64,000 nt of DNA, taken from Polytrichum commune (Eukaryota > Streptophyta > Polytrichopsida > Polytrichales > Polytrichaceae). Position numbers and translations under genes: made by a program. Under the pieces are notes generated by a model. That model searched no databases, was not told where the DNA came from, and saw only the letters and a program-made list of their open reading frames with translations. Positions within the stretch are counted from its first letter, which is position 1; every line of letters begins with the position of its first letter. Shown piece after piece: positions 9,001-45,279 of this stretch. The stretch is taken from positions 19,528,001 through 19,592,000 of the forward strand of contig OX485804.1 in NCBI GenBank assembly GCA_950295325.1. The letters run 5' to 3'.

Positions 9001-10950
9001 GAAAAGTTACATAGTTGACAATACCATCCATTATATGTTTGATTGGATTGCATATGATTGGATCAAAACTTAGACTGCATTGAACTTGGCATTTTATATG
9101 CTTCCGGCTATATTTAATAGTTGCATCAATAAACGTAAAGCTTGAGCCCATTACTTGGATTTGTGTGACAATGTTTGGATTGTTGGCTTTCTCTTAAATT
9201 ACCACAAACATTGGACATTGAATTGAGTGCGCAATTTCCTCTTATACTACCAATTATGCCCAAAAACTTGAGTTTCTATGCCTCCTAAAATTCATTTCCC
9301 AAACCCATGAAGCCTACAATATGGTTCAAGGAATGTTCAATGCATGGAATGTGCATACATTTTTTTAATGAAAATATTAAAATCCAATTCCAAACCCCTC
9401 GTGCCAAGTTGCGTATGTTGGATTTTAGTAGGTTAATTGGACTTTGATTAAACTCATCACTCATATGATTAACCATTAAAGATGTTATTGTTTATGACAA
9501 GACACCATGGGTATAGGACACTAGTGGGTGTAATTTCAAATATTTTTGCTCCCTTACCACTCACAAGTTATAGCTCATTGCTCATCGCTCGCATGATAGC
9601 ACTCCTCTTATGGAATATCAATGCATTATGTGGTCAAATGCATATGCCTTGGAGAATTTCATGAATTTTTTTTAAAAACAAACTCCCTTGTGATTGTACC
9701 TTTATTGAGAGCTACCAATGTGTTTCCCACATATAGAATTCTCCTAATTGTCTACCTAGATGATGACCATATCCTCATAAAGCTCACACCTATATGAAGA
9801 TCTTGAAAAACACACTCAACATGTATATAAAACATACAATACAAGCATATTCTCGACTTTGTATGAGGAAAATTATGTCAACCTTTCATATTTCCAAGCT
9901 CACACCTTTAATAACTTGGAAGGGCGTTCAAAGTGGTTGCGGCTGGCTACTATACATACAGAGAACTCCCCGTATCTATAAATTTGAAAACTGTCAAGTA
10001 TTTGTCAATATCATTCATGTAAAAATCAAGTTAGTTGTGTTATATATTTAACACGCCTCTCATAGAGGACACATCACGTCTAAAATACAAGGAAAACACA
10101 CCAAATGTAGACACAACAATGTTCACAACACATGTAAGGCATACACATATGTTGCCATATAATGATAATTTTCTTTATTCTTTCTTCAAAATTCCAACAT
10201 CAATGGGATGTTATCCACATACTATGTACTTAGGTTTTGGAAAGGCCTCTAGAGTTGCCACCCAAATTTGCTCAATATTATCATAGAGGCATGTCATCTC
10301 TTAAAAATGGAAATTGCTACCTAAATTTGATGCCCATCAGATTTAAAGAAATGCTCAATCATGTATGTTTGATTTAGTATTATTTAAAAACCCATTCTCT
10401 CAAATAGGCCACACTAACATTTGGAACTCAAAGACACACACCTTTAGACGAATCGTGTAATATAAAATAGTCGGACACACATTCGTGTTGTTACAAGGAT
10501 GACAATTTTCTCAACCCTTTGTCCCACTTAATCCCAATAATTATGAATTGATGCCCTTGGCCTCCAATCCACCCTCAAGTTTGGCAAGTCCTTTTTGAGT
10601 GATCGCACGAGCCCACATAAAAAATGCACCCATTTTCAAGATATTACGAGTCATTCGATCTATGAATGTCAACCCAAAGTTGCCTTACAAACATGAAAAC
10701 ACACACATATGTGATGGTGTAAGAGGACACTTCTTCCCACATCTCCTTCAAAATCCCCACAACTTCCCGGGTATTGCCCTCAAACTCCAAATGTACACGA
10801 ATAATTGGGGAAGGACCTCTAGAGCGACCCCATGGACCCGTCCAAACTCGGCCACTTTACTATACGTAAGCGGCATCCCGTATCCGGGGATGTGGAAATG
10901 ACCATGTAACTATGAATACCAACCTATGCTAAATTGGGTAAGGGGTCCAT
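1..10950. other. AT-rich spacer, no recognisable gene
   Basis: About 11 kb of AT-rich DNA in which every open frame is short (under about 120 codons), unsupported by splice-site context, and not recognisable as a protein family. It contains a purine-rich run near 5,030-5,075, a GAA-rich microsatellite at about 5,533-5,570 and a T-arm-like sequence near 3,953-3,975. I see no rRNA, complete tRNA, CRISPR or long terminal repeat. It probably consists of old, decayed repeats, but I cannot classify them by eye. Confidence 0.6.
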
Positions 10951-10974: not shown

Positions 10975-11603
10975 ACTTATTAACTTACCCAGACGGTCGC
11001 TGCGCCGGAAGGACCGGTGGTCGCCGGGTCGCACCAAGATCCCGAACCCGTTCCCACCGATCCGACCTCGGTCCCCAGCGAGCGATGGGGGTGGAGCTCC
11101 TCGCAATCGCAAACCCACACACACAAACGCACAGGAACACACGCCAGGCACCAAACACCAAACACAAAAACAAAACCCAAGGAATGAAGGAAGGAGAAGT
11201 AGGAGCAATGATGTGAGCCAAGCGAAGCCAAGGTAAGCCAGTATTCGGGAGGACGATTCCACAATCGCTCGCAGGCAGGCAGGCTTTTAGGGTAGGAGGA
11301 CGCTTCTCCCACGATGCACGCAGCGATCGGAGCGAGATCGGGAGCAGGCATGGAGGGGGCGGAGTGGTAGCTGAGCATGCGGGCATGGGGGGAGGATGAG
11401 GGGCGGGGGTAGGGTGGAGCGATCTGGGATGGTTTGTAGGCGCCAGGGTTTGGGCGGGGGCGGGACGGGACGACGCCAGGCGATGCGGGGAGAGTTGCGC
11501 AGGAGCAGGAAGCAGCAGAGGATGCGCAGGAGGAGGCTGGCGCTGGAGTAGGGGCGGGCGGGTGGGAAAGCGGAGCGAGCTGGAGGAAATTGGGGCTTCA
11601 GAG
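10975..11603 (+). promoter_or_regulatory. GC-rich upstream and 5' leader region of kinase copy A
   Basis: Base composition switches abruptly from AT-rich to strongly GC-rich at about 10,980, just ahead of the PBL27-like gene. The last 333 bases before the start codon (from 11,271) appear identical to the leader of copy B. Upstream of the GGCA-repeat junction at 11,271 the two flanks are unrelated, so the two genes probably have different distal promoters but the same proximal leader. I see no convincing TATA box. The transcription start is not determined. Confidence 0.5.
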
Positions 11604-14600
11604 ATGGGCTGTTTTCCCTGCTTCGGCTCTAAAAAGGAGAGGAAGGTTCTGAAGAAGGACGACAGCATCCGTGATGGGCAATCGCCTGCTTCCAACAACG
11701 CTGCTCACCTAGTGAAGCTTCCCTCTGGTGAGCGAGAGCAAGAGCAAGAGAGTGTGGGTTTGGGGTTGGGCACGGGCATGAGTGTGGCGGGTGTGTATGC
11801 GGGGAAGTGTGTCGGATCCATGTGGTGGCGATGTTGTGCGGGAGCGGGTATCAGGGTTGGGACGGGTTCCGGAGGTTGTCGGGTCCCCGTTGTGGAATCC
11901 CGGGTGGGTGGGTGGTTGGGGACCCGAGGAGCGTGCTTGGGTTTGTGTAAGCTTGTTGAGCGCAGGTTGTGAGTGGTTTAGTTGATGTGGTTGGTGAGGG
12001 GAAAAAAAATTAGGAGGAGAAAGTGTGTGGGAGCATTATGCGCGGAGCTGGTTTGTTGTGGTTAGCGGGCTGTAGGTGCACATTTTGTAAAGAGATAATG
12101 ATTATATGAGACGGGAAGTTGGGTTTTGAAATGGTGGAGTGAGTTGAGAGCGGGACGGTAAGTTGGTGTGTATCCTGATGTTAAGACGTGATGTGAGCAG
12201 TTAATGCAGATAAACTGAAATCGAAACCATCATTTGACAAAAAGGAAGGTCCACGAGATGGAACCACGCATATTGCCGCTCAGACGTTTACTTTCCGTGA
12301 GCTTGCGGCCGCCACTAAAAACTTCCGACCGGAGTGTCTACTTGGCGAGGGCGGATTCGGACGGGTGTACAAAGGGAAGCTGGAGAATACGGGGCAGGCA
12401 AGTGAATGCATGTGGTTTGCGTGTTGGGCAGTGGGCACGTGGTTGTGTGTTGTGAGTGAAGGTGGGTGGCATTGGGTGGCGTGGCTGATGGTTGGGCGCG
12501 GGGAGTTTGCAGGTGGTGGCAGTGAAACAGCTGGATCGAAACGGGCTGCAAGGGAATCGAGAGTTTCTGGTAGAAGTGCTGATGTTGAGTCTTCTGCATC
12601 ATCCGAATCTTGTGAATTTAATCGGATACTGTGCGGACGGCGACCAACGTTTGCTGGTGTACGAATTCATGCCGTTAGGTTGCTTGGAGGATCATCTACA
12701 TGGTAAGTGGGGGCAGGGTTTTCTGTGAGCGGTGGATGATGGCGAGGGACTGGTGGTGAGGTGCAGAGGGTAGGAGGTGAGGTGGAGAGGGTAGAATGTG
12801 AGAAGCGGGGGATGATTTGGGTGGGGTTGGCATGTGCAGACCTGCCCCCAGACAAGGAAGCATTGGACTGGAACACCAGGATGAAGATTGCAGCGGGAGC
12901 AGCCAGGGGTCTGGAGTATCTGCACGACAAAGCAAACCCACCTGTTATTTATCGGGACTTCAAGTCTTCGAACATTCTTCTGGACGACGGTTTCCATCCG
13001 AAACTGAGCGACTTTGGGTTGGCGAAGTTGGGACCAGTGGGTGACAAGACTCACGTATCCACACGGGTGATGGGGACTTATGGGTATTGTGCTCCGGAAT
13101 ATGCAATGACAGGGCAGTTGACATTGAAGTCAGACGTGTACAGCTTTGGTGTGGTGTTGTTAGAATTGATCACGGGGCGCAAAGCCATCGATAATGCACG
13201 GGCGGCTGGGGAGCACAACCTGGTGGCATGGGTAGACCTCCTGATCTTGTTTTTGCAACCTTCTAAAAGCAGTTCGGCACTATTCTAGTTGTCCTGGATA
13301 AGGTTATCGGCAGCTAATGTTGGAATCTTCACACTTACAACTCCAGTAAATTGCTAGTTGGTGGGATTTGTAGACAGAGTCCTTGGGAATTGTGGAATCA
13401 CTACAAGTTCTCGGTGGTCATGGGCTCTCAAAATAACGTGTGCATCTTATCTTATAGTAGTTAGGGTTGCTTGGAGGACGGCATGAATATTTGAGTGTCA
13501 TTGTTATACTTGTGTTACTTGTATTTGCACATGATGCGATTCTCACTGCATGAAGCTGGCTGATGAATGCAAGTGAATGTTGATTAATAGTTTTGCTATA
13601 CGCCCCCTTATTATGGTGCAATAAGATTCAGTCTTATATCCTTAATTTATGTGCAGAAATAGCTGAGTTTCCTTTTCCTAATCTATGCTCACGGGTGCTG
13701 CCAGAAAGCTTGATGAATCTAGTTCCGTTAATGAGTGCTTTTTTCTTCCTCTTTTATTGGAGTTTCAGCCTGGCAATGAACAAATGTATAATTACCATAC
13801 CTCCGTTTTGTATTGGCAATATCTTCGTTTTATTACATCTGATTAAATGCCAATATTTATAAATAGCTCTTGTTGAATCTATTGACCAAATACTGTGCAT
13901 TGGGAGTGACGATTTACAAAGGGCCTAATTGACACATTCAGGTCTATCATGGCAAAACTGATCTGACAAATTGAGGATGATGGTGCAGGCACGACCTTTG
14001 TTCAAGGACAGGAGGAAGTTTCCATCCATGGCAGATCCCATGCTCCAGGGTAGGTATCCAATGCGGGGTTTGTATCAGGCTCTAGCTGTAGCAGCTATGT
14101 GCTTACAAGAACAGGCAGCCACTCGTCCTCTTATTGGTGATGTGGTGACTGCATTGAGCTACCTAGCTTCACAAATATACGATCCTGGTGTGCACCCAGT
14201 TGGCAGTAGTCGATTTGCACCTCCGACCCCATCACGGGAGAAACGTGAAAAGGAGAAGAAGATGCCTCCAGGATCAAACACAATAGAGGAACGGATGCTG
14301 AAAGATCAACGTGCTGGGAAAACAGGTGCTCCACGATCACCATCTGTGCATTCTCAGGCATCACCTGATTTGCGGCCCAAGGAAGGAGGGGCTCGGGCTA
14401 GGATGACCAATGGGACATTTGATGGAGGGCGTAGTCAGGATACTGGATCTGGTAGGAAACGGGATTCAGATGATTGGGACAGATTTGAAGGAGGAGGGAG
14501 AGACAGTCCTAGCTATGCAGGGAGATCTGCAAGAGATGTGACTAAGCAAACAGGTCCCACACGAGAGCGTGAACGGGCTGTGGCAGAGGCCAGAGTATGG

Positions 14601-14639
14601 GGGGAGAACTGGCGAGAGAGGAAGAGGGGCAACGCTTAG
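11604..14639 (+). CDS. PBL27-like: PBL27/RLCK185-like receptor-like cytoplasmic kinase, copy A
   Basis: Five exons: 11,604-11,727; 12,210-12,397; 12,513-12,702; 12,840-13,231; 13,989-14,639. Phases join cleanly to 514 aa, close to Arabidopsis PBL27. The start is chosen at MGCFPCFG, where Gly2 and Cys3/Cys6 give a myristoylation/palmitoylation membrane anchor. Visible kinase motifs are the glycine loop [16 protein letters not shown] lysine, [11 protein letters not shown] catalytic loop, DFG, the [16 protein letters not shown] activation segment and APEY. The tail ends [19 protein letters not shown], a match to PBL27 rather than PBS1. In the family, PBL27 and rice RLCK185 relay chitin signals from CERK1 to a MAP kinase cascade at the plasma membrane; that role here is inferred. 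Intron 2 has a GC donor (CAG|GCAAGT). A degenerate PTB copy follows downstream, as an intact PTB follows copy B. Confidence 0.93.
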
Positions 14640-15375
14640 GTAACATGGTGGGGGAGATGGAGGTATTGATCAATGTGAGCCAGTGGGTTCCTTGTGGTAC
14701 TCAAACTGAACTGAAAATGGGAGTGTGCTGCATGCATAAATTTGATCTTTTGAAAGGAGTCATTGTGGTCAGATTTTCTGAATTGATAGAGGCATACAAA
14801 GTATGAGTTCATTAGGAAATCTGAACCTCACTCTGAACAACATAGCTAAGGTGCTGCCTCACAGATTTTTTGGGGAAGCATTGATGCTTTCATGATTAAT
14901 GAAGGGATTGTTTCACAAAGTTGAGACAGCATACAGATGATTTGAGAGCTAGAGAGCCTCAGGTGTTTGCCTTCTTCAAAAATTCAGATAGGTTCAGAAC
15001 TTGTCTCATAGGTCTTTAAGAAGGTGGGAGTTTGTTGGACTGGTCTTGTAGAATGATGGCCTTGTTATCTTTGTAACAAGACTGGTCACATGTTAAGCTT
15101 GATGCAGTTTTTGGCTGCATTTCCTCTCCGTTGTAGGCTGCCTTGAAGTCAAGCATTCTATTATTTGAGAATGATCCAATATCCATCTTTATGTTTTTAG
15201 CCTGGTATATTGCCATGCCTTGAGGCCTGACCTTCAGAATCATGTAGTGATGTAGGTACATATTTATACAGTTCTTTCTTTGCAAGTTGTGAGTTTTCTA
15301 GGAGCCTGATGTGGAAAATATTGTTTCCCTACTAGGCTGGTATAATGCAGTAAATGTGTCCCATGAGGACTTTCA
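14640..15375 (+). other. 3' region of kinase copy A, duplicated downstream
   Basis: This stretch aligns, with many substitutions and small indels, to the sequence after copy B (27,230 to about 28,070). Shared blocks include the region around TTGAGACAGCATAC and a closing block (TGTGGAAAATATTGTTTCCC...). Beyond about 15,375 similarity stops. It marks the 3' side of the alignable kinase unit and probably includes the 3' untranslated region. Confidence 0.6.
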
Positions 15376-17100
15376 CTGTGGTATGTAAATCTTGATTGTA
15401 GTTTTGTTCTGGACAGTGACCTCCTTTGTGCTGAATGTAATGGTTTTGTGTTTAGTGTGGAAATGCTCATTTAGGGAATCTGTGAAATGTGGTATTGTCT
15501 AGATTTAAGAATTGATGCTACTGGCAACTTAAATGCATGTGTGTGACATTTATCGCAGAGAATGGTCAGGCAATGAATGGTGAATGTCTGATTTCTGTGA
15601 AGTTTCATCTTGATGTTCTATTCAGCTGATTTAAGGGATACTAGTGGTCACCATATAGTCAGGGGAGATGCAGACAATTGGTTGGTTTAAAAATGGGATG
15701 TAAGTTGTAGTGCACATTCCTTGGCAGAGTGTCAATCTCTCGTGCCTATCAATTTGAACTTCGAAGTGATTCAGATGAGTCCTTAGTGCTGTCCAGGGCT
15801 TTGGGAATTGTGTTGCACTTTTGTACATCTCCCCAGAAGATGAACAGGCATACTTTGGAGGAGCACCTACCACAAGTATTAAATATGTCAGAGGCTGGTT
15901 GACAGTCAAACCTAATTTGGATCATAATCTTTCTCAGATAGATGGGCAAATTAAGATACATGTAGAACCTTATTATCTATTTATCATCTTTTGAAAATGC
16001 CCTGACTAATAGAATATTCCATCTGTCAGTGGACATCCAATGATTATTTTACCCAATTTATCTGATATCTCCGGAGTCTCGTATTAAGACGCTAAATTCT
16101 ATGTTAATTCCACTTTTGAGTGTCATGCAGATGTTGCAAATCTCTGTGGTTAATGTGTCCTACATAATACAGGACTGTCTCCCCCCGTAATTAAATTGAC
16201 ATGGTAACTCATCTACTTGGTGTCATGTTATCAAAATAGAGGAGGCAGAAACTTTGCAAAAGTAGATGGTAGTAGGCACTGCACCAATTTACTTTGACCA
16301 AGGTAATCACTGATATTTGTTCATGCTCGTAAGTAGATGATGTAATCATGTATTGTCACAGAATTAATGTGAAACTTTGTACAGCAGATTTATCTTCACA
16401 TAATGACCCAACTACAACGAACTATCTCTAGCAAATATTGTGCTGATCGCTGCAGAAAGAGATATGGAGCATCTTATTTACCTGAAGGAACACCAATTTC
16501 CAATTCTGGGCTGAAATTTATATCAACCTTTGTGAATGGTAGATGGAAAAATAGAAATGCTGGCACTAATTTACTACGTTCAGCATTAGTTGAGAGACAG
16601 ACTGGATATTAATACTACAAAGTCGGTAAGTAACAGATTATTTGTCATGCAACACGAATCAGATGATTCTGTCTCTTCGTACCTATGTTTCTTTTGCTTA
16701 TATGTGTGTATCTTGAAACTGAGCATTCGGTGGTGATTGATAGAACAGTTCACAACTTTACATCAAGCAAATATAGTAAGGTTCAAGCCCTTTCTCGTCA
16801 TGTTTTCCAGGCACTCTTTGTTCATGTGACCTGGAAGGAGGTGAGACTGGAGAGAGAATGGAGATGTGCACACATTTGGTTTTTTGTTGTTGTCACTCTT
16901 TTGGTGGATTTAACAAACAACCCACTTATAATTGTTGTGCTCACTCTGGACTTGTTTCAGCATAATTCTTTGACTTGTCTCAATCAACCCTCACATGGAT
17001 GAATGAGTGATTTGTTGACAATTATACAAATGTACAAATGTGCCAGATTTGTATCTTGATAGCTCTCAAAGTATTCTTCTATAATAATCTTGGACAACAA
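15376..17100. other. Spacer between kinase copy A and PTB pseudogene
   Basis: No gene is recognised. Open frames near 16,403-16,612 and 16,685-17,002 show no family signature and no supporting splice context. I could not align this stretch by eye with the corresponding spacer before the intact PTB gene. Confidence 0.5.
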
Positions 17101-17108
17101 CATGTTGA

Positions 17109-18900
17109 ATGTGACAAACCGATCAAAAGTGCTTCAAATGCGAATCGTAGTCCTTAAACTACCTGAGGTTGAATTGCCATTAATCAACATGACGTTGAAC
17201 GCTTAGTTATGGGTTAGGAGTATGCATGACAATGGATATTCTTCACTTTTTCGAGGCTAGGTTTTATTCCAGGGAAGAAAGAATGAAAGAAACTGGAGGA
17301 CAAGTGGTATGAAAACCTAAGACTTTCATCTACTTTGGTTCGATTCCTTCAATTTTTCCTACTAAATTGTGTGAAATTGCCCTTGGCAACCTCACTTCAT
17401 GAACTACATTGAGTGTGAAGCTCAAGGTGATGCTTGATATTGGAACATAGATGTAGATTGATCTATATCCACTGAAGCTTGAGAAGTTGATCTCATGTCT
17501 ATGGCACCTCGGTGATGCCATCAGATTTGACCTCCGTCTAATTATCTTCAAGCCTTACTGCGTGACAATACTGTAGAGTGTTGTCTGGTCCAACACTACA
17601 TAGTGTGCCAAGGTATTGAACATGGTCTTCATCAATGTGAATACACAAGTGACAAATTCCTTCCAACCAATATTTAATTTACGTTGAACCAGACAGCACC
17701 GTGCGCTATTAGAACATCAGGCACTTCTGAATGTCCTTTCCCTTCAGCAGCAACTCAGTCCTTCGAAGTGATGGTGCTAAAGGTCGTGATGCTGTAGACA
17801 AAGACTTAGGTAATAATTTGAAGCAGAATAAACTGCTGACTTGAAATGATGTCGAATTGTGCTAGCACATTCCAGAGGTTGGTTGGTGGATTTAAGCACG
17901 TTCATGTTCACAAATCTGGCATTGTCGCGAACATATCTGGCGTGTTTCTCTGTGCAGGCTTGGGTGTAGATTCAGGATACTCCATCATTCCTCTTTACAG
18001 AACCTTGTGCGTGTGGAGTCATTCAAAGCAAGCGATAAGTTTACATCTACATTTGTGGTCCAAATGCTGTGGTGATAATTTATAGTGTATTTTGACATGA
18101 AAACCTTGGAATTTATCTGCTCCAGTATACTTGTGCAAGGTTTCTGACAAATCTTTGTTTGAAATATATAGATATCTCTCTCAGAGCTATCTGAGTCTGT
18201 AGGTCTTGTCGATAAAGCTTCTCTCATCATGTCAGTTCTGAAAGTGACTTGAATAAAGCAAAGAATGCACTGTATACTGGTAAGTTCATCCCTGATGGGT
18301 CTAATCAGGATTTGACTGATTGTTTTGGCCTTTTATCACTGGGAGAATGTGTAATTCCAGTTATCATTAACATCAGGAACCGATAATCGCATATTGCCCT
18401 CACACGTGAGGTGGGTATCTGCAGACCAGGCGAGTGCCCTATCACAATGTTTCTTCTCAAATTTCTTCTTAAATATGTCCTGTGTCTCTCTCCCTTGCCA
18501 GCTAGCCTTTCTTTCCCTCTCGTCCAATCCTCTATTTTCTTTATGACCTCTTCAGGCTTCGCTAATTGTATCCACAATATTATGCAAATTTTGTTATATA
18601 GATTCTGAGAGAGGGAATATAGTATGTTTTTCTTGATGGTCATCACTAAAATTGTGTCTCAAAAACCACTTCGTCTGTGCAGGGCTCTAACCTTCAACTC
18701 TGCATTTTGCAATCCAGCTAGAAATATACTGGAGGCGAATAATGTTAAGAGTTCACCACCCAACTTGGTTTTTGTTAATTTTACACTAAGTTACGTGTAC
18801 TTTATGTCATATAATAACTTAGATTTGACATCCTACCAAGTGTTCTTCAATTTATTTTAGAACCTGGTAGACTTGTTTTACAGTTTTTAGCTGCAGTTGT
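17109..18900 (+). pseudogene. Decayed PTB (polypyrimidine tract-binding protein) gene copy
   Basis: Degenerate but collinear copies of PTB exons, compared with the intact gene at 31,886-37,046. Exon-1-like at about 17,109-17,168 shares ATCAAAAGTGCTTCA but its ATG is followed at once by TGA. Exon-2-like at 17,747-17,809 has intact AG and GT borders, is 63 bases instead of 72, and a tryptophan codon has become TAG. Exon-3-like runs about 17,958-18,014, exon-4-like about 18,340-18,440. Exon-6-like at about 18,683-18,734 is 13 bases shorter, shifting the frame. Exon 1 to 2 spacing (about 579) nearly equals that in the intact gene (595), so this is a genomic duplicate that kept introns, not a retrocopy. 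Exons 7-14 were not found, apart from a weak exon-8 trace near 18,885. Confidence 0.75.
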
Positions 18901-21900: not shown

Positions 21901-23650
21901 CTTGCTCACTTTTCTATGCAAAAAAGTAAATGAAATGTCTGTGTAAGAGATCTATTGAATATCTCTTCAAGGAGCTATCACTCATCTAATTTTCTCCAGT
22001 CATGTGAAGTAAGCAAGGGTTTGAAGTTCCTACACATGGTCATGGCACAATAAAACATGACAAAGTAACCATGTGATTGACTAGTCTTTTAAAAAGTTAA
22101 AGAATGTGTTGCCTAAGTAGAAAAAACAAGTGAACATGGTAACTATGATGTGCAATGGGTCCATTTGCCAACAAGTAGTCAAGAGTGCTTGCCCTTGAGT
22201 CTATCATTGAGGGGGTATTGGCTACTTTTAGCAAGTGGACCAAACTAGTCTACATTGAGCTATAGAACATGCATTCTTTAATAACATTTCCTCAATGAAA
22301 GTCCAATACATGTCTTGAAAATTCCCAAGCGATGCGTGTCGGTTCATTTTCCATATGTTGGACTCGGATCTTAATTTAGGCTCTATGAGTCCAATCCTCA
22401 AGGTGAGTTGACATTAGCGTCGAAGACCAAAAAAGAAAAAAAGAAAGACTCCAAGATCAAGTGCCCCCATTGGATCAACATGTGAAAATCAGAACCATGA
22501 TTTTTACATAAGGCACTGAGTCCCAAGTGTAAAAAAAGATTGAAATGACATTCTTGTGGCATTAGTTTCATGATTCTTTTTGGTTTTTGAAACTAAGAGG
22601 AGCACTTTGTTGAATTGGGACCTACAAGGTTTGGTGGGACAATGATGTCATATCAACGTCATTCAATGATCCATACTTTTGGCTCAGACAACAATGTAAA
22701 GTCCATCACCCGAAATTTTAGTCTCGATCAATAGGAGCTCGCGAATTAGGCGTAGTTTTGGATCTTTAAGTAAACACAAAACTATCAAGCTTCCTCAAAA
22801 AGTCAAAGTTGGTAGTACTTAGGCATGTCCACAAATAACTGTAAAACCGATCTACGAATCATCGACTTTCAGAGATTTTTGGGCCAACATTGCTGCATAC
22901 TCGTCCCACTCATGAAGTCCATGTATATAGGCATATCCTAAATCTTCAATGCACACCGATGATTTGAAGAAAGAAAGCCCATTAAAGTCTCAATTCTCAA
23001 GGGTGACTTTCTAAAATTTGCAAAAGTTGGGAGTTGGAGAAGTATTTGAATATGATTGTTGGAGGCTCCCAAAGAACAACTCATGTACGGTTACTTGGAA
23101 AATGCTTGCTTTTTTTAAAACCAAATTTCTAAGTTTGTGTGGGGCAAGGGTGCTTATCTAACCCATATGCTTTCCGAATCCTTATTGCCCATCTCGTGAC
23201 CCAACCTCTCAGACCCGTTACCACCCTCCAAAAGTTAAGATTTGAAGGATTTTGAAGAGTTGTCTCTTTTCCAATTACTATTGCACAATGATAACAAACA
23301 TTTCTCATCAATCCCAAAAACTTTGATAACCCATTTTGAGAGAATCAATTGTCAACAAACATAAGAATTGTTGCTCTTGGGGTGAATGGGGTTTATAGAG
23401 GGTCCGGTTCAAGAAACTTGGATTCCCAAAACACCCTTTAATGAACTTAACTTGTGGACTCCAAGCATGAAGATTGGGTTAAATACTCAACCTAAGAAGA
23501 GTATTTACATGAGTGGACATTGCGGAGACTTAGAAAGAAAGTGATGTCACACTAATGCCACTTCATTTGATCATATTTTGGAACCAAACCTCTAATGTAA
23601 AATCCTTCCTTGAGTCCAAACTTTGGCTCTTGCCCAGTATAATTAGATCG
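18901..23650. other. AT-rich spacer between duplicated units
   Basis: No gene is recognised. It contains a diverged copy of the dispersed repeat also seen at 45.5, 53.8 and 55.4 kb (here about 19,357-19,640), TG/TA microsatellite sequence at 19,740-19,775 and a run of 13 G at about 19,776-19,788. The remainder has only short open frames. Confidence 0.55.
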
Positions 23651-23689
23651 CTGGAGTTTGGAGTTTCTTTGGTCTTGGACAACTAAACC

Positions 23690-23870: not shown

Positions 23871-24282
23871 AAAGAGCGATGCACGTGACCAAGTAGAGTA
23901 GCAACGCAGGCCAAGCTCACAGGACTCCACAGCGCTCTTTCGTTCGAAGGCAGGCAGGCAGGCTTTTAGGGTAGGAGGACGCTTCTCCCACGATGCACGC
24001 AGCGATCGGAGCGAGATCGGGAGCAGGCATGGAGGGGGCGGAGTGGTAGCTGAGCATGCGGGCATGGGGGGAGGATGAGGGGCGGGGGTAGGGTGGAGCG
24101 ATCTGGGATGGTTTGTAGGCGCCAGGGTTTGGGCGGGGGCGGGACGGGACGACGCCAGGCGATGCGGGGAGAGTTGCGCAGGAGCAGGAAGCAGCAGAGG
24201 ATGCGCAGGAGGAGGCTGGCGCTGGAGTAGGGGCGGGCGGGTGGGAAAGCGGAGCGAGCTGGAGGAAATTGGGGCTTCAGAG
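23690..24282 (+). promoter_or_regulatory. GC-rich upstream and 5' leader region of kinase copy B
   Basis: GC-rich segment with a reiterated GTTCCCA-type motif at about 23,750-23,795 and a long GA microsatellite at 23,826-23,866. From 23,950 to the start codon it appears identical to the leader of copy A. Upstream of 23,950 it is unrelated to copy A. The GA tract resembles GAGA-type promoter elements of plants, but its function here is only a guess. Confidence 0.5.
23826..23866. repeat. GA dinucleotide microsatellite
   Basis: About twenty uninterrupted GA repeats lie roughly 420 bases before the start codon of kinase copy B. Copy A has no such tract. It is likely to vary in length between individuals and may lie in the promoter or leader. 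Confidence 0.95.
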
Positions 24283-27229
24283 ATGGGCTGTTTTCCCTGC
24301 TTCGGCTCTAAAAAGGAGAGGAAGGTTCTGAAGAAGGACGACAGCATCCGTGATGGGCAATCGCCTGCTTCCAACAACGCTGCTCACCTAGTGAAGCTTC
24401 CCTCTGGTGAGCGAGAGCAAGAGCAAGAGAGTGTGGGTTTGGGGTTGGGCACGGGCATGAGTGTGGCGGGTGTGTATGCGGGGAAGTGTGTCGGATCCAT
24501 GTGGTGGCGATGTTGTGCGGGAGCGGGTATCAGGGTTGGGACGGGTTCCGGAGGTTGTCGGGTCCCCGTTGTGGAATCCCGGGTGGGTGGGTGGTTGGGG
24601 ACCCGAGGAGCGTGCTTGGGTTTGTGTAAGCTTGTTGAGCGCAGGTTGTGAGTGGTTTAGTTGATGTGGTTGGTGAGGGGAAAAAAAATTAGGAGGAGAA
24701 AGTGTGTGGGAGCATTATGCGCGGAGCTGGTTTGTTGTGGTTAGCGGGCTGTAGGTGCACATTTTGTAAAGAGATAATGATTATATGAGACGGGAAGTTG
24801 GGTTTTGAAATGGTGGAGTGAGTTGAGAGCGGGACGGTAAGTTGGTGTGTATCCTGATGTTAAGACGTGATGTGAGCAGTTAATGCAGATAAACTGAAAT
24901 CGAAACCATCATTTGACAAAAAGGAAGGTCCACGAGATGGAACCACGCATATTGCCGCTCAGACGTTTACTTTCCGTGAGCTTGCGGCCGCCACTAAAAA
25001 CTTCCGACCGGAGTGTCTACTTGGCGAGGGCGGATTCGGACGGGTGTACAAAGGGAAGCTGGAGAATACGGGGCAGGCAAGTGAATGCATGTGGTTTGCG
25101 TGTTGGGCAGTGGGCACGTGGTTGTGTGTTGTGAGTGAAGGTGGGTGGCATTGGGTGGCGTGGCTGATGGTTGGGCGCGGGGAGTTTGCAGGTGGTGGCA
25201 GTGAAACAGCTGGATCGAAACGGGCTGCAAGGGAATCGAGAGTTTCTGGTAGAAGTGCTGATGTTGAGTCTTCTGCATCATCCGAATCTTGTGAATTTAA
25301 TCGGATACTGTGCGGACGGCGACCAACGTTTGCTGGTGTACGAATTCATGCCGTTAGGTTGCTTGGAGGATCATCTACATGGTAAGTGGGGGCAGGGTTT
25401 TCTGTGAGCGGTGGATGATGGCGAGGGACTGGTGGTGAGGTGCAGAGGGTAGGAGGTGAGGTGGAGAGGGTAGAATGTGAGAAGCGGGGGATGATTTGGG
25501 TGGGGTTGGCATGTGCAGACCTGCCCCCAGACAAGGAAGCATTGGACTGGAACACCAGGATGAAGATTGCAGCGGGAGCAGCCAGGGGTCTGGAGTATCT
25601 GCACGACAAAGCAAACCCACCTGTTATTTATCGGGACTTCAAGTCTTCGAACATTCTTCTGGACGACGGTTTCCATCCGAAACTGAGCGACTTTGGGTTG
25701 GCGAAGTTGGGACCAGTGGGTGACAAGACTCACGTATCCACACGGGTGATGGGGACTTATGGGTATTGTGCTCCGGAATATGCAATGACAGGGCAGTTGA
25801 CATTGAAGTCAGACGTGTACAGCTTTGGTGTGGTGTTGTTAGAATTGATCACGGGGCGCAAAGCCATCGATAATGCACGGGCGGCTGGGGAGCACAACCT
25901 GGTGGCATGGGTAGACCTTCTGATCTTGTTATTTTATATATCTACATCTAATTAGCCCTAAGATCAGACATGAAGCAGATTGGTGTGAGTGTATTGACAA
26001 CTGCTGTTGGAATGTGGACATCCAATACCCTCGGGGTAGATAGGCTAGAAGTGAATGTAATTTGACTTTGAGTTGTGGATGGTTTTGTGCACGTTCTTCA
26101 TAGTCTATATGGTTGCGTGTAGGTTGGTATACTTGTCCTTGTCTTATATCCAGGTTATACAAAGTAGAAAGTTTGAGTACAGGATCTTTATATGAATTAT
26201 AGCTATATATGGGGAATGCTTGTAATAGGTAATGAAGAGGATTGGTAGTTGTTTGTTCCCTGATTGGTTATCACGTTGGAACAGAGATGAGACCTAACTT
26301 GGAGACTAACTTGGAGAAAGTGTGTGAGCTGGATGCCTGATCACTGGTAGAGCAATGTAACTTGTTACTTTACTCAGTGTGTTCTTGTGGTCCATTTCTT
26401 CTACAATGGTCCTGAGGTTTATCCAAGGATTTTCCTGTTAGCACTCAAGTAATTTGGTTATATTCTGGATGTTTGTAGAGTTTGGACTATTTTAAAAATC
26501 TATTTGTTGAAGAGTTTTAAAGGAACCTATTGAACCGTATGGAAGGTAAGTTTATAACTGATCAGACAAATTGTGCAGGCACGACCTTTGTTCAAGGACA
26601 GGAGGAAGTTTCCATCCATGGCAGATCCCATGCTCCAGGGTAGGTATCCAATGAGAGGTTTGTATCAAGCTTTAGCTGTAGCAGCCATGTGCTTACAAGA
26701 ACAGGCGGCCACTCGCCCTCTTATTGGTGATGTGGTGACTGCATTGAGCTACCTAGCTTCACAAATATACGATCCTGGTGTGCACCCAGTTGGCAGTAGT
26801 CGATTTGCACCTCCGACCCCATCACGGGAGAAACGTGAAAAGGAGAAGAAGATGCCTCCAGGATCAAACACAATAGAGGAACGGATGCTGAAAGATCAAC
26901 GTGCTGGGAAAACAGGTGCTCCACGATCTCCGTCCGTGCATTCTCAGGCATCACCTGATTTGCGGCCCAAGGAAGGAGGGGCTCGGGCTAGGATTACCAA
27001 TGGGACATTTGATGGAGGGCGTGGTCAGGAAACTGGATCTGGTAGGAAACGGGATTCAGATGATTGGGACAGATTTGAAGGAGGAGGGAGAGACAGTCCT
27101 AGCTATGCAGGGAGATCTGCAAGAGATGTGACTAAGCAAACAGGTCCCACACGAGAGCGTGAACGGGCTGTGGCAGAGGCCAGAGTATGGGGGGAGAACT
27201 GGCGAGAGAGGAAGAGGGGCAACGCTTAG
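24283..27229 (+). CDS. PBL27-like: PBL27/RLCK185-like receptor-like cytoplasmic kinase, copy B
   Basis: Five exons: 24,283-24,406; 24,889-25,076; 25,192-25,381; 25,519-25,910; 26,579-27,229. They encode 514 aa with the same lipid-anchor start (MGCFPC), glycine loop, VAVK lysine, catalytic loop, DFG, activation segment and PBL27-type C-terminal tail as copy A. Exons 1-4 and introns 1-3 show no difference from copy A at a constant offset of 12,679 bases. Intron 4 is 668 bases against 757 and is largely unalignable. Exon 5 has 13 substitutions, ten silent and three changing residues (Met to Ile, Ser to Gly, Asp to Glu) in the variable tail. Both copies look functional. The GC donor of intron 2 is shared. 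An intact PTB gene follows about 4.7 kb downstream. Confidence 0.93.
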
Positions 27230-28070
27230 GTAACATGGTGGGGGAGATGGAGGTATTAATTGATGTGAGACTGTTGGTTCCTTGTGGTACTCAACTGAAC
27301 TGAAAAAGGAAGTGTGCTGCATGCATAAATTTGATCACCTTGAAAGACTCATTGTGGTCAGGTTTTCTGTATCGATAAGGCATAGAAAGTATGAGTTCAT
27401 TAGGAAATCTGAATCTCACTCTGAGCACTCGAGCTAAGGTGCTGCCTCACAGAGATTTTTTGGGGAAGCATTGATGCTTTCATGATTGACAGAGGGGTTG
27501 TTTCACAAAGTTGAGACAGCATACGAATGATTTGAGAGCTAGAGAGCCTCAGGTGTTTGCCTTCCACAAAACCTCAGATAGGTTCAGGACTTACCTCATA
27601 GCTCACACTGTTCTTGACATGTAGAAAATGGGAGGGTTGAGGGTCAGGTGTTGGGTTGTGATAAGTGGTGGCTAGAAAGGCGGGAGTTGTTGGACTGGTC
27701 TTGTAGAGTTGCAGGCTTGTTGTTTGGTGTAGCAAGTGTTCAAATTTGCTGTGCAGGCCGTTTACATGTTATTCTTGGTGCAGTTTTTTGCTGCGTTTCC
27801 CGTCCTTAGGCTGCTTTGTCAAAAAGCATTCTTTTGTTTGACAATGATCCAATGCCCTCTCTATAATTTTTCCTGGTATATTACCATGTCTTGAGGCCTG
27901 ACCTTCAGAAATCATGTAGTGATGTAGGTACACATCTCAAAAGATACATACATATTTATACAGTTCTTTCTTTGCAAGTCGTGAGAGTTTTCTAGAAGCC
28001 TAATGTGGAAAATATTGTTTCCCTACTAGGCTGGTATAATGCAGTAAATGTTTCCATGAGGACTTCCAGT
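27230..28070 (+). other. 3' region of kinase copy B
   Basis: Aligns with indels to the 3' flank of copy A (14,640-15,375) and probably contains the 3' untranslated region. The matching ends after the block near 28,015-28,065, defining the end of the alignable kinase unit. Confidence 0.6.
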
Positions 28071-31000
28071 TTGGTGTAGTGAGTCTCACTCCTATGGTGT
28101 TTTTTTTGGGTGTCAGATTATCTCCATGGATGTATGAGATAGTTTTATTTTTACATTGGGTCCTCATAAGGGATAAGATTTTTAGTCTTCAATCTCAGGA
28201 GTCAGAATAGAAGATGTTGGCCATGTCAGATGGGATATAATTGAATTGCACTTCAAAAACACTTGTGCTTAATGAGGCTGTTCTGCTTATTCCTGTCTGG
28301 CCATTCTAGTACAACACATAAGTTACATGGTATGATAGGGAATATCAATGTGGAGACTGTTGGTGTGCAGGTGGCACATTCTATGTGTCGTCAATGTTTA
28401 AGATATATGATATCAACAGGACTCAGAATAAACTTCGAAAGCTTCCAACAGCTTGGAAAGTGTGTCGTGCTTTTTCAAAGCTATCAGAAATTAATTTGCC
28501 ACAGTTTCGGGGGATAACCTACCAAGAGTATTATTGGCGAACTTGGCTATCTGCCGAATCAGATTCGAATCTTAATTGTTTGGACATATGCACAAAAATA
28601 TACTACTTTCGCTCCAGGTGCTAATTGCTTAAAATGATCTGAACAGGTGTGGAAGGAACAAGATCTTATTGCAGTAACATAGGGAACTGATGTAGTTTGT
28701 GTAATTGGGTACATGACCAGGATCTGTGTGGACCAGCAGACTACTTGTTTGGGAGTTCTATTAATTAACTTGCCCCTTGGTAAATATTTTAGGAAAGAAA
28801 TCTCGTATAGAAGACAAGTCATCACGAGGCCTAGCATTACTGATAAAAGCAATTTATACATACTAATTCTTTGTCCAGGACACATGACGCATGTGAAAAC
28901 ATTTATTGACTCTCCACTTGCTCTAACCATTCCTAAACTTTTGTGTGCATGCTCTACTCAGTGGTGACTCCTCCACCTGGCTACTTGCTACAAGTTTCTA
29001 AAACATGCAAGAAAAAGAACCATCTGTTACTCCTTCATTATCTGGTGCACATTCTAATGAAGTTCACCTTTGTCCAAAACTGCTCTTCCTCAACCCACAA
29101 AATAAGTAAAGAAGCATTATTTTGCCTAGTAACTACAACAACAGTTGGAAAACGGGGAAAAAACACGTCTACCTTCCGTTTGAGCATCGTAGAAGTGAAC
29201 AATCATAGGGAAAAAGCAATAAAAACAAATAAACTAGATAAATAACACACTGTGACAATGAGCATGCTAGACACTGACACAAAATAAACAAAGACACCCT
29301 TGACTAGCAGGCCTCCTTTATGTATAAACTAGCCTTGCCAACTTCTATTCCCGGAGTGTACCAACAATTGACACTTGTATGCATGCCAAGCTTCACAACT
29401 ATAAATCTTTCCAACCCCTCTCTTGGCCAATAGGTTTTAATCGTTTACCCAAAAAAACCGCTCTTATTTTTTTGGATAATGGTTGCCAAAACACACTACT
29501 TATTGGGTTGTCACTTTAACCCCTAAACTCTCCATATTAAACAACTAATGGGTCATGTTGAAGCCTATGTTTGAGGAATTCTAAAGTGGGATCAAGTAAC
29601 CTTTAGTAGAATATAATCATATGGATGTGAGAAATACAAAAGTGTTATATTTGATGTTTTTATTAAACCATCCAAGAGATATACTACATGGTACTATAAA
29701 TCGGTATAGAGTTGGATGATTAATTTGTATAAATTTGGTTGTTTTTTTTTGGAGGAAAATTATTAAATTCTATAGTAAAATCTAGTTGGAAATCCATTTG
29801 AATGTAATTCCAATTCAATGCAAGAAATTTCATTTCATTCCACTTTGATGGGAATGTATCTTAAATCTTGCAATGTAGACCCCCCCCCCCCCCGAAAACA
29901 AAACTCTCAATCCTTTCGCATTTCTAAAGAGTGGAGATGACATTACTCAACACTTAGTGCATGTTTAGTGGCCCCTCGGAATATAACAATTGGGTGTTTG
30001 GAAAGATGTGTAGGGAAACTCAAGTTTTAACTGAGCTCCCAACATCTGACTATAATGTTATGAGGGCCCGCATCCCTAAGTAATATTATGGATTTTTTTT
30101 AATGAAATATTTAACATGAAATGGTCTTTAGGGGTCCACCCTAAATATACTTATGAAGAATGATTATCTCCTTGTAGATAATATTAAATCACAACTGAAC
30201 ATGCGGAGGATGTGTCATCATTGCTTGCAACACTTGTAAATATATTTGGATCAATTTGGGTTAATGGAGATCTCAAAAACCCTCTCTTAGTGAGCATAGG
30301 GGTCATATTTGACCTTAAGTTCAAAATGTTGTCCAAATTCGATGTATTCTTCACACGATCATTATTGCAAAGTGATGTCTCCATCATCTATTGTGTTACA
30401 TCATCATAGACTTATGTAAGGGCCACTTCACACATGAGCCATTGGTTGTGACCATGTAATTGTGAGGACCCCTGGCTCTCATCCAAAGGCCCTTACCAAT
30501 CGTTTAACTGACATGGTTTGCCATGTAAGAATCCACGTAGACTTTCCATCCATGATAATTTCTTTGGGCCTATAGGGCCTTCACTTTCTAGTGTGAAGTG
30601 AACTAGGAAGATCTTGGCCTTTTTGACCAATGAGAGATCTTAGAATGCAATGGTCACGGGCCTACAGTCCCGTGTGCGAAGTGGCCCTAAGATGTTCACC
30701 AAGGTGCATTAAGTCAACCATTTGACGTCTAAGATTGACGTCAACCAATTGTAATGGCTTGTGCTTAGAATGATCAAAAGATTGGAATAATAGATAGAAT
30801 ACACGATTTTCATGGGTTTTGGGGATTGAACTGCAGTTTCCAGCACCAAGATGGTCACACGCTCTCCTCAATTCTACAAGAGTCACTCAAGAGATCCGTT
30901 TCTCTTGGTAGATTATGTTTCAGTTTTATGTGCAAATTGATCACATGGAAGGGATTCACAATAAGGGTCTTGGCAGGGGAGTTTTGAAGTTCTTTTGGTA

Positions 31001-31840
31001 TGCTCTTTAACCACCTGCCCATTACACCGCATAATCCTCCTCCTCTCCCGAACTCAAATCTTTCTTTACCGCATGAGCTGTCTTCTTGCAAACAACGACA
31101 ATTCGTTGACACCGATTTGCGTGTGCAAACACCCCCGCCCGTCGAGAGTGCTGCTTAGTGTGGCGATCCAAGTATGTACATAGCAATGAGTTGAGCAAAT
31201 CATTTCTTGGCTTGGTGCCATTAATAACCAGCCTTTCCCTTTGGTATTGGTCTATTTTCCTCCTCACTTCTTCGCTCCATAAGAAGCCTCACATTGATTG
31301 AACAGGGGTGTCAATTTTTGCGTTTGCTGCTCAATTTCTCACTCTCTGTCTTCAATGTTGTACATTCCTTGTGCTCTTGCATTAATTAAATATTTCTTTG
31401 TGATTTTCTATGTGAAATATTATTCTATTATTTAATTATTTTTCATGCCATTTGTATGACCTTGAAATTGTGGTGCTTTTTGTGGTTTTGATAATCTCAC
31501 ACTTGGTTGCATCACTCTCTTGAAATCCATATCGGGTTTCATCTCATGCCCCTCTGAAGTAGAACGAGGCTGGAAAAATATGGGAGATAATCGAAAAGAT
31601 TGGCAAGTTACATTGTTGATGTTGTGAATCGCCATGATGATGCTGTTTTTTTGAAGATGCTGTATTGCAATTCGCCTTCGTGAAGTAAATTACAACTATA
31701 TCAAACAACGAACGATGTCTTTTCTTTGGAGCAGTCTGAAGCTGATTTCTTTCATTCGTCTTAGAATGAAAACTCACATAGATTTGAAATTAATGATTTT
31801 TTCTTTTTCCATTGTGCCACAATTTTGATATCGTTCAAAG
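28071..31840. other. Spacer before the PTB gene
   Basis: No coding gene is recognised. It includes a run of 14 C at 29,880-29,893. The last few hundred bases probably hold PTB promoter and leader sequence. A good 3' splice site at 31,865 (CTTGTGCAG) 21 bases before the PTB start codon suggests a 5' leader intron whose upstream exon lies somewhere in this stretch. Confidence 0.5.
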
Positions 31841-31885
31841 TATTCTTATTAAATGTCTTGTGCAGCGCTGGTCCATAACATCAAA

Positions 31886-34800
31886 ATGACGGAGCCATCA
31901 AAAGTGCTTCATATACGAAAGGTAGGCCCTGAAGTATCAGAGGTTAACGTTCCTCATAAAATACCAATTGAAAGTGAGGTCTTTAAGCTAGTCATGAAAT
32001 GTATGTTGGATGCGTATCTGGGTTGAGGTGCGGACTGCTTCAAGAATGTGCAAACCCAACTAGGAAGGGTTTGCTCATTCTTGTTTGCTTACCTTCTACA
32101 AATTTCAAAGTGTTTAGCAATCAGGTTTGAGGCGTCGGAGGTGGAATGGCGAAGGAGCCGACGTTCAATTTAGTTGTTTAAAACCCAGGAATTTGGAGGA
32201 AAACTGCCATGAATGCCAAGTTGGGCTTTTGGCTCGAGCATCTCAACCATAGTGGTATATAACAATTATATTTTCATTTTTTTCCCTGTATCATAAAGTC
32301 AAGTTGGAGGCATCCCTTGCCACCTTATTTTCAAATTGAATCAATAGTTGTCAAGGGGTTTCCACTGCTTGCGATGTTTGTGGGATAAATGTGAACTTTG
32401 TCCGAGCATCTTGAAAGATTTACATATCCATAGTGGTCTCAATCATGTACCTATTGCCTTTCTTCATTGCAATTACCTCACCACTTAGAACCCTTGGCTA
32501 CAATATTAATTGCACGCCAGTGATTGTGATTTTCCAGCATGACCTGCAACAACTTGCTCAATCATTTGGAGTGGTGCAAAAGGTGGTGATGTTGTGGGCA
32601 AAAAATCAGGTGTTCTTCTAAACTATTCCAAATAACATGGTCGCATTGTGAAGACACATTCCATGAGAAAAAATTAACACGTGGTGGTGGTTGTTGATTA
32701 TAATTTTTTTCAATTGTGTGGAACACTGTAGTCATGTTTCAAATACTAATTAGTATTGGTTTTCTACCGTAAATTGGCTTTTCTCCTTTCTGTAGGCTCT
32801 GTTGCAGATGCAAGATATTCCATTTGCAATCAACGTTATTCAATATTACTCTACAGTACCACCATGTGTGCGGTGAGTCAGTCAAATTGGACCCGTGAAC
32901 CAGTCGATTCCGACCTTCACACATCAATTTGTGTATTAAGGAATATAGAGTGTATTTTGACATTACATCATGTGGTTATATCTACATCATTCTATTTATG
33001 CAAGCTACTGACATCTTTTTGTTATAAACGATCACCTTCTCCCAAAACTATATGTAGCTGTAGTTTGTTTTGATAAGGTTCTTGTAGTGCATCACTTGGG
33101 AATGTGTGCTGTTCCTAGTAAATTCACCTTGTGTATCAAAATAAAAAAGGCATGGTCTACCTGACTTGCCTCAATTATTGGAGCCGCAGAGGGAGGAATG
33201 TCTACATGCAATTTTCTTCACATCAAGAATTGACGACTCCAGATCAACAAATGCGGCGAGTCCCTGGTGATCAGGTTAGGGACATTCACTAACCATATTT
33301 CTCGAATTCTCTCCCCGTTCTCCGCCTTGGGCCCTTCATCTCTACCTCATGACAACATAGCCTTATTTTCTCTCCATTCAACGCTCTTCGCTTGCTTCTC
33401 TCACTTCTTCCCCTCCATTCTACCCCTGCCGGGGAGGATGGAAACTTGTCTTTGCTTTGCTCGTCTCCAGGAATTGCTGCCCAATCGAATTCTTTTAATA
33501 TCCATTTACAACCCGCTTTATCCTATCACTTTGGATGTGCTGCACCAAGTATTTTCACCCCATGGCTTTGTCGAGAAGATCGTCACCTTCCAAAAGTCAG
33601 CTGGTCAGCTTCTCTTCTGTCTCAACTATCTTTTATATCTCTCTATTTCTCGTGCGTCTTTCTTTAAACCCCTTAACACTGTTGCCTCAATATATAATGG
33701 GATACAAACTGATCTGGAAACATTTACCAACATTGTTTGGTTGAACTGAGTTTCAAGCATGCACTGAGCGTTTCAGCTTGAAGGAAACTAGTAAGAAATT
33801 GAGATCTTCCTAGGTTCTTCATTGAATTTAGGAAGGCTGGATTGGGAAGGTCAAGCAGAAGGAAACCTTGTGCGTATGAAAAACTAAATCTATTGTGTTT
33901 ATTGCATGCTTTTGCTAATTTCATACCGTCTCTTTGTTTGTGTCTACATCTAGTCTGTGAAAGGGGGAAACCTCCAATTGTAGCTCAAATATCTCAATTT
34001 TGTACGAGGCTACATTTAAGCTCAAGATTGTTATTCTTTCGAAATTTTGAGCTTGTTCTTCAATTATCCGTGTTTTGCATATTTATGGGATACAAATTAT
34101 GATGTGTTGCTCTTGAAGTTCATTGTTATGGTTATTTGTGTGATTGTCCCTGAACATTCATGCTTGTTGCCACCACCTCCTAGCTCACAAACTACTTTGT
34201 GTGTGCAGGGCTCCAAGCTTTGCTGCAATACGCATCCCAACTGAATGCAATTCAAGCTAGAAATACCCTTCAGGTGATTAATGCTGAGAGTTCAACGAAC
34301 CATTCAATACTTTTAAGACTTATACTTGTCCATTTGGTCATCATGATACTCAACCATTTTTGTGTTCAGGGCCGGAATATATACGATGGTTGTTGTACAC
34401 TAGATATTCAATTTTCCAAGTAAGTTTCATATATGTCATCTTTCTACATTAAAGTGGATGATCCACTACTATACTTTCTACCTCCTCTCCTTTGCAGTCG
34501 TTTTGAGTTTTGCCAACCTCCTTCTCATGGCATATAACAAAGTTTTTATGTTGTTGTAACACTAAGCTTGGAGGAGTGAACGCATGTGGGAGTCATTGGC
34601 GACAAAGTGAGGACCTGAGTTACTATAACTTGAATCCGATCAAAATCTACGTAGCTGACCACCATGTACATAAGCATCATATGTGAAGAAATGTTCAAGA
34701 TGAGGTCATTAACAATTTTTGTTATCTTCATGATACATCTTTCGTTGACCAAGTTTTCTTGCCATCTCCAGTCTTCAGGAGCTGCAAGTGAATTACAATA

Positions 34801-43800: not shown

Positions 43801-44885
43801 ATTGTTTCAAGTAAGGCAAAATTGGGTGTAGAGGCATTTTGTGTCAACATAAGGGGGGAATTGGTGTCATGGAATCTCATGAGTTGAGAAATGGATAATC
43901 ACATAACAAAGTCCTTATACTCAACGATGATGTAAGGAACCTACACCAATGTTAGTGGTTATCCTATACTAAGGGACGCGACTAAGATCAAAGGGAAATC
44001 ATATTGAGGTATAATTGGGCCAAGGCCCTGAATATGATTCAAGCACAACCTCATCACAACTTATTTGAATATGCCAATAGAATCAATCATGTTGGTAGGA
44101 TTATGATGGTATTGAAAATATGTTTTGATGAGTCTGCCATTATCAATGGCTACATAGATTCAACATTGAAAAGTATTATGTTGAATTTCACCACAATTTG
44201 GTACTATAGCATTCAAATAAAACCCTATATTTCTCATAGATTGTATAAAATGTAGACACCTTTAGGCTATGTTGTAGTATTTGCTCAAAAGTTCAAATTC
44301 TCAAACATAACTAATTTCAATTAAATATGAGTTAGGAATTCTAACCCCCACTTATGAACACAAACCCAAAATGCTTTGCAAAAGATTCACACTCACGTTT
44401 GCAATGTTCCATCCTGCGTAGTCATGTCTATGAGATAAAAACTATGAAGATGCATTAGAAGACTCTTGTACTTTAATCAAATTTATCCAAGAGCCTTGGA
44501 TGATTCTTATCAAAATGGCTAGGATGCATGAGGATAGCAAGATGAATATGACCTTCAGTTAGACTGGCACATCAAACTTTTATGCAATATGTGGATTCAA
44601 TATTAGATATAGGTTAAATTGGCTTTATATTTATTATATCATCACAGATGCTATATTTGATTATGTGCTAGATATTTGTTTGAACTTTTGACACATGAGT
44701 TCATAGCATTATTCAATTACTATCCATTGTTCCATTCTAATAACATCAATACACAACATGGACGTGCCAATGCAGTGCTCTGCTGTGAGAACAAACATAG
44801 TATAATTTTGAATAGAATCTGGCTTATTCCCGGTCCCACCCAGTGTACAGACTTAGTTGAATAATGTTATACTTGTGCATTATGA
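40891..44885. other. Spacer upstream of the MITE
   Basis: No gene is recognised. A short tandem duplication of about 53 bases is seen at 41,180-41,275 (GATAATGCATG...CACACAATTG repeated). All open frames are under 90 codons and lack family signatures. Confidence 0.5.
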
Positions 44886-45279
44886 GAGCATCCTCAGTCG
44901 GTCTAGGTAAAGCTCACTGCAAACCAAGACCTATCTTGCTTAAAATGCTCAAAATTTAGAGGGAGTGCACCAAATCTTGCTTAAAAATGGACAGATCCTC
45001 CCACACTCCCTCTAAATGTCAAAAATTTGGAGGGAGTGTGGGAGGATCTTTCCATTTTTAAGCAAGATTTGGTGCACTCCCTCTAAATTTTGAAAATGTG
45101 ATGTTTTCAATGAGGGATTTCACCTACGTCAAATTTTTACAATTCTTTTTTCTTGAGAAATATCTCACGTTTATTTAGGTGTGCTTCTAATGATGGTAAT
45201 TTCAGTTTCTAATTTTAGGTCAGTCAAAAGATAGGTTTTGGTTTGCAGTGAGCTTTACCTAGACCGACTGAGGATGCTC
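44886..45279. mobile_element. Palindromic MITE with TGA target duplication
   Basis: A 394-base element with terminal inverted repeats of about 50 bases: it opens GAGCATCCTCAGTCGGTCTA and closes with the complement ending GACTGAGGATGCTC. Both flanks carry TGA, a likely 3-base target duplication. Inside, a second inverted repeat pairs about 44,955-45,018 with about 45,027-45,090 (CACTCCCTCTAAAT / ATTTGGAGGGAGTG), so nearly the whole left half folds as a hairpin. There is no coding capacity. A 3-base duplication and non-autonomous size fit the PIF/Harbinger group, but the superfamily is uncertain. Confidence 0.88.

Follow-up and report, generated by a model that had tools for sequence, protein, structure and literature searches.

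RESULTS

The window analyzed here is a 64,000-nucleotide stretch of the Polytrichum commune genome (contig OX485804.1, positions 19,528,001 to 19,592,000 of the forward strand), in which two copies of a kinase gene lie in tandem with a spacing of 12.7 kb (Table 1). The exon models, with five coding exons per copy, were placed by eye using splice sites and the reading frame. Intron 2 is a GC-AG intron in both copies (12398-12512 and 25077-25191), and the GC donor is kept in the degenerate paralogs L001-L003. The coding sequences of the two copies differ in 12 codons, all of which are within exon 5 and 3 of which alter the residue. A Pfam kinase domain is present at residues 85-291, and the protein starts with MGC, which we take to be the acylation motif of RLCK VII kinases. 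The likeness to RLCK subfamily VII (PBL2, BIK1) lies in the comparison with solved structures, among which PBL2 was the closest (6j5t, E 8e-101) and RIPK and BIK1 were within the top five. Judged by sequence, the pair fits RLCK VII kinases; we assume that both proteins are members of this subfamily and that PBL27 of Arabidopsis is likely their nearest relative.

Table 1. Coordinates of the tandem kinase genes and associated features in the window
Feature	Position	Strand	Remarks
Kinase gene, copy 1	11604..14639	+	CDS exons 11604-11727, 12210-12397, 12513-12702, 12840-13231, 13989-14639; 1,545 nt, 514 aa + stop
Kinase gene, copy 2	24283..27229	+	CDS exons 24283-24406, 24889-25076, 25192-25381, 25519-25910, 26579-27229; 514 aa, 3 residues unlike copy 1
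Identical tract, copy 1	11271..13239	+	5' leader, exons 1-4, introns 1-3, first 8 bases of intron 4
Identical tract, copy 2	23950..25918	+	
Six G-quadruplex-type motifs, copy 1	11381..11921	+	Leader and intron 1
Same six G-quadruplex-type motifs, copy 2	24060..24600	+	
Intron 4, copy 1	13232..13988	+	Reads as old and unconverted beyond about +23
Intron 4, copy 2	25911..26578	+	Reads as old and unconverted beyond about +23
Exon 5, copy 1	13989..14639	+	Differs from copy 2 at 13 positions, which cluster; two long stretches lack silent changes
Exon 5, copy 2	26579..27229	+	
3' untranslated and downstream block, copy 1	14640..15477	+	Homologous to 27230-28173
Counterpart 3' block, copy 2	27230..28173	+	
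Old collinear homology downstream of copy 1	16959..18755	+	Three pieces, 16959-17170, 18077-18553, and 18658-18755; 60-70% to 31740-34294
Counterpart of old collinear homology, downstream of copy 2	31740..34294	+	

Elsewhere in the window, an RRM domain (36615-37046; Pfam E 7.3e-9) is encoded downstream of copy 2, near the old collinear homology listed in Table 1; together with 33234-33749, which is without a Pfam match, it is presumably part of what may be a polypyrimidine-tract-binding-like gene. On the reverse strand, 62418-63353 encodes the N-terminal portion of a protein of the Methyltransf_29 family (Pfam E 2.5e-20). At 44885-45280, a near-perfect palindrome of 145 bases (94%), accompanied by further inverted arms of 53 bases (98%), possibly represents a fold-back element, and 48097-48716 contains a tandemly repeated unit of ~173 bases (2.4 copies, 77%) as well as additional stretches that resemble it.

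In a direct comparison of the assembled sequence, the two tracts have zero differences over 1,969 bases, of which 1,075 are non-coding and 894 coding, the latter with ~209 synonymous sites. The original prediction had claimed exactly this, introns and leader included, and it holds letter for letter. The left edge is abrupt, i.e., the preceding base is not the same in the two copies, and it adjoins a short GGCA repeat. On the right-hand side, the first mismatch is at 13240 (C) and 25919 (T), which by the gene model is position +9 of intron 4, as had been proposed; homology extends to 13254 and 25933 with 2 mismatches in 1,984 bases and fades beyond. Based on a self-comparison of the window, no other repeat in it is nearly as long or as close as the tract pair; exon 5 together with its 3' flank comes next (95% over 1,036 aligned columns), and then another piece on the 3' side (81%). 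Searching the 407.8-Mb genome with 11271-13254 yielded 18 match rows; two were full length and both inside the window, while the other 16 were partial, with 69-90% identity, and lay in other kinase-like loci. Exon 5 with its flank also gave two matches, both inside the window. Thus, there are two separate loci with differing flanks, in which the common segment is far closer than the remainder. The idea that the kinase domain as such had been homogenized goes too far: exons 1-4 correspond to residues 1-298, while the PBL2 alignment spans residues 66-366 of 514, and because the last part of the kinase fold is thus encoded by exon 5, the tract falls short of the whole domain.

Upstream of the tract, the first 700 bases had no detectable homology between the copies (score 12, reached by 54 of 100 shuffles), and comparisons over 3,000 bases and 11 kb gave nothing above chance (best 11-kb match, E 0.019). 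Old dispersed repeats are found upstream of the copies at about 9420-9630 and 23389-23681, with 172 and 383 first-look genome candidates, respectively, 40 of which were scored in each case. With only two full-length places in the genome and no upstream sequence common to the copies, the flanks were not duplicated. Because all detectable homology ends at the left edge, this edge can be read either as a conversion edge or as a duplication edge.

Intron 4, which is 757 nt in copy 1 and 668 nt in copy 2, had been described as largely unalignable, and this is what we find: beyond the shared start, the similarity between the copies is at most marginal, with a score of 16 compared with a shuffle mean of 12.7 that is reached by 4 of 100 shuffles. 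As an outgroup, we used degenerate kinase relatives that the genome search identified on other chromosomes, clustered on C3 at around 43.65-43.87 Mb and as a single copy on C1 (66.11 Mb). Of seven such loci that were fetched, L001, L002, and L003 retain sequence homologous to exons 2-4, to introns 2-4, and to some of exon 5; L004-L007 were excluded as outgroup because they retain too little or are another kinase's locus. The local score test was done with L001 and L002, omitting L003, which is 98% like L001 in intron 4. In this test, intron 4 of copy 1 scored 27 against copy 2 (reached by 5 of 200 shuffles, with gap costs unlike those in the 100-shuffle test) vs 47 against L001 and 48 against L002, while intron 4 of copy 2 scored 64 and 73 against the two paralogs, and none of the latter four scores was reached by any of 200 shuffles each. 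With 23 bases trimmed from the start and 28 from the end, the two intron 4s share 46% identity with each other and 49-50% with L001/L002, values close to those that any forced alignment would give, so that the argument here rests on the local scores relative to shuffles. With the ends and 70-odd exon 5 bases included, the copies are 58.6% identical, copy 2 is 58.7-58.9% identical to L001-L003, and copy 1 is 54.0-54.1% identical to them. Because the copies are as close to each other as copy 2 is to L001-L003, and closer than copy 1 is to them, intron 4 backs an old split without naming the closest pair.

In the tract, introns 2 and 3 are 100% identical between the copies vs 44-57% to L001/L002, and the tract overall is only 44-76% like the paralogs. 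Hence, with L001/L002 as outgroup, the history of the segment conflicts with that of the neighboring sequence, as judged by distances and scores rather than by a rooted tree. When the copies are compared as possible donors against this degenerate outgroup, intron 4 of copy 2 outscores that of copy 1 locally, and by identity the two are equal. Genome searches for a third source of intron 4 returned, for copy 1, the intron itself and 69 bases on C3 (80%) inside a paralog's own intron and, for copy 2, the intron itself only. In the cluster on C3, eight places were matched over at least 305 bases and two over shorter stretches. The degenerate copy on C1 shares 98% identity with L001 across 2.1 kb, with flanks at 95%, which suggests that it may be a fairly recent interchromosomal copy.

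The 13 differences in exon 5 (~2%) had been counted correctly as 10 silent and 3 non-synonymous changes, corresponding to 10 changes in 157 synonymous sites (0.064, uncorrected) and 3 in 491 non-synonymous sites (0.006). Compared with 0 changes in ~1,284 silent and non-coding sites of the tract, the synonymous divergence of exon 5 is significantly higher (Fisher P 1.8e-10). The silent changes are clustered: based on 20,000 random placements and tests chosen post hoc, P is 0.0007 for the combined length of the two longest stretches of codons without change and 0.04 for the longest stretch alone. In the 3' block, divergence per 100 aligned bases, with gaps uncounted, is 8-13% in six of the nine bins, 3% in one, and 19% and 26% in the last two. 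The description of this part of the gene as a free-running tail is not supported, as the divergence of exon 5 is very small beside so diverged an intron and its silent changes are clustered.

Farther downstream, the three collinear pieces scored 64, 64, and 54 bits, compared with 38.3 for the best of 100 shuffles, which fits an old tandem duplication as far as sequence similarity can indicate. A genome search with 18060-18760 returned only itself; because the same search missed its 60% counterpart in the window, this stretch may instead be an old repeat. The match between 15801-15959 and 28453-28603 (39.7 bits) is barely over the best shuffle. Two other matches above shuffles were excluded from the argument, i.e., 20166-20429/44090-44333 (46.8 bits), which is in order with an offset that is larger by >8 kb and may be a repeat, and 19505-19627/45653-45773 (44.0 bits), which is out of order and overlaps a repeat. 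Comparing the spacer with the region downstream of copy 2 for coding similarity yielded four matches that were weak and unconvincing (E 0.002 to 0.010).

The front half of the gene is rich in G on the coding strand. Six G-quadruplex-type motifs lie at tract positions 111-651 (0.55 kb), and 12 of the 14 such motifs in the window fall in the two tract copies. The density in the tract is ~25 times that of fifteen 10-kb control stretches, which together have 18 motifs in 150 kb and were taken at round-number positions on C1-C7 without matching for gene starts. Coding-strand GC skew is 0.49-0.78 in the leader and introns 1-3, 0.00-0.27 in exons 1-4, and 0.09 and 0.29 in the two intron 4s. The maximum 500-base skew of the tract (0.58, scanned in steps of 50 bases) vs that of the fifteen controls (0.23-0.55, in steps of 100 bases) is at the top of the range and not far outside it; L007, another kinase's locus, reaches 0.53. 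The GC content of introns 2 and 3 is 0.59 in the tract vs 0.40-0.46 in L001-L003, and that of intron 4 is 0.37-0.39 in all five sequences; third-position GC is 0.51-0.63 in exons 1-4 vs 0.41 in exon 5. As a lead, this pattern is as expected from GC-biased conversion, an effect that a paper, by its title, reportedly addresses in yeast and Arabidopsis; however, the normal 5' gradient of transcribed genes would look alike.

DISCUSSION

Here, we describe a tandem pair of kinase genes in which different parts of the same gene point to different ages. Intron 4 indicates that the split between the tandem copies is approximately as old as their split from the degenerate paralogs, with the two copies and the paralog family appearing as three lineages about equally far apart. 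Because this conflicts with the identity of the tract, and because the downstream homology is old, we consider it highly probable that an old tandem duplication was followed by a recent conversion of the front half, from leader to exon 4, and that exon 5 and the 3' block had been homogenized earlier. The original prediction of a recent conversion with these limits is well supported now that an outgroup has been added, i.e., the split of intron 4 is old and the tract is without differences. The divergence of exon 5 and of the 3' block resembles that of regions homogenized at an earlier time that have since gained changes. The low silent divergence of exon 5 looks like the result of an older conversion, to which purifying selection would have added, and the evidence for this older event is the low silent divergence together with the post hoc clustering test. 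The recent conversion was at the level of DNA because introns 1-3 were copied too; cDNA-mediated conversion is ruled out for the same reason. From 0 changes in 1,284 sites, divergence since the conversion is <0.23% (95% bound). If a neutral rate of approximately 9e-9 per site per year applies, the conversion would be less than about 130,000 years old.

We speculate that a break or gap arose in the front half of one copy and was filled from its neighbor 12.7 kb away, with that copy serving as the repair template, by synthesis-dependent strand annealing or a similar non-crossover route. Thereby, the leader, exons 1-4, and introns 1-3 would have been replaced. Copying would have halted where pairing reached its limits, on the left where homology ends, which would make this edge an old limit of homology, and on the right at the start of the saturated intron 4. 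An older homogenization may have affected exon 5 and the 3' block, which would then have acquired new changes. That both copies now carry the same sequence argues that the exchange was non-reciprocal.

Alternatively, the duplication could be young, with an age as given by exon 5 (10 silent changes in 157 sites), in which case one intron 4 would later have been replaced, e.g., from a third paralog, before the front half was converted. We regard this history as improbable. It would account for an exon 5 that is only 2% different and for the 8-13% divergence of most of the 3' block; however, both intron 4s are recognizable relatives of intron 4 in L001/L002, and the downstream homology is also old. 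Moreover, genome searches found no close third source for the intron, with the caveat that a missing match is no proof of absence, and a recent conversion would still be required for the tract.

An assembly error, in which a collapsed or miscopied consensus equalized the front halves, is unlikely, even though it would yield the perfect identity of the tract. A collapse is difficult to reconcile with flanks and exon 5s that differ between the copies, as does intron 4, and the copies have differing surroundings within one contig of 70.3 Mb in a window without N. In addition, 1,969 bases would be short relative to long reads, if such reads were used, and polishing would hardly have wiped out intron differences as numerous as those in intron 4. 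Least probable of all is that a recent duplicative insertion of a 2-kb block, or unequal crossing over, took the place of conversion: the left edge does lie at a short GGCA repeat where all homology ends, but unequal crossing over would duplicate the upstream flank, which is not duplicated, and an inserted block would have to arrive in frame and in splice register before an existing exon 5.

Given an old duplication with a recently converted front half, the pair adds a further clear example of an already known process, interlocus gene conversion. Like other tandem duplicates subject to interlocus (ectopic) conversion, it combines a stretch of identical sequence that ends abruptly on both sides with diverged flanks and a conflict with the outgroup; it differs in nothing in kind, and what stands out is the sharp contrast with the adjoining saturated intron. 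A paper on receptor kinases of peanut (PMC8215822) reportedly mentions gene conversion 15 times; our literature search found no paper that deals specifically with gene conversion in this group of kinases, and we claim no novelty on that ground. In the moss Physcomitrella, tandem genes are highly similar, suggesting gene conversion, according to one study (PMC3045890), which refers to a 2008 review. As in the concerted evolution proposed there, the copies here are closer than their age, in this case in one pair only. For RPP8 of Arabidopsis, intergenic exchange is reported to be limited between the tandem duplicates themselves and greater with a copy located far away, feeding diversity (PMC6771003). 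This immune receptor family, as portrayed there, resembles our case in being a plant tandem gene family with intergenic exchange; in contrast, here neighbors exchange and diversity is removed.

The G-rich tract is a possible reason for a conversion hotspot at this locus. In such a scenario, R-loops or quadruplexes in the transcribed front half would cause breaks that are repeatedly repaired from the neighbor, each conversion would raise G+C and thereby renew the hotspot, and intron 4 would act as a firewall. We consider this self-renewing hotspot doubtful; it is a lead only, because a 5' gradient mimics the pattern, L007 reaches a comparable skew, and the controls are not gene starts. If it were true, the two genes would share one promoter-proximal, ATP-binding half and keep separate introns. 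Moreover, if the G-rich front half drives exchange, the pair would make it possible to test directly whether, in plants, gene conversion is seeded by DNA structures linked to transcription.

Altogether, our findings support that one intron dates the tandem duplication, while the adjoining exons mask that age. Dating such duplicates by coding sequence alone would, therefore, be badly wrong.
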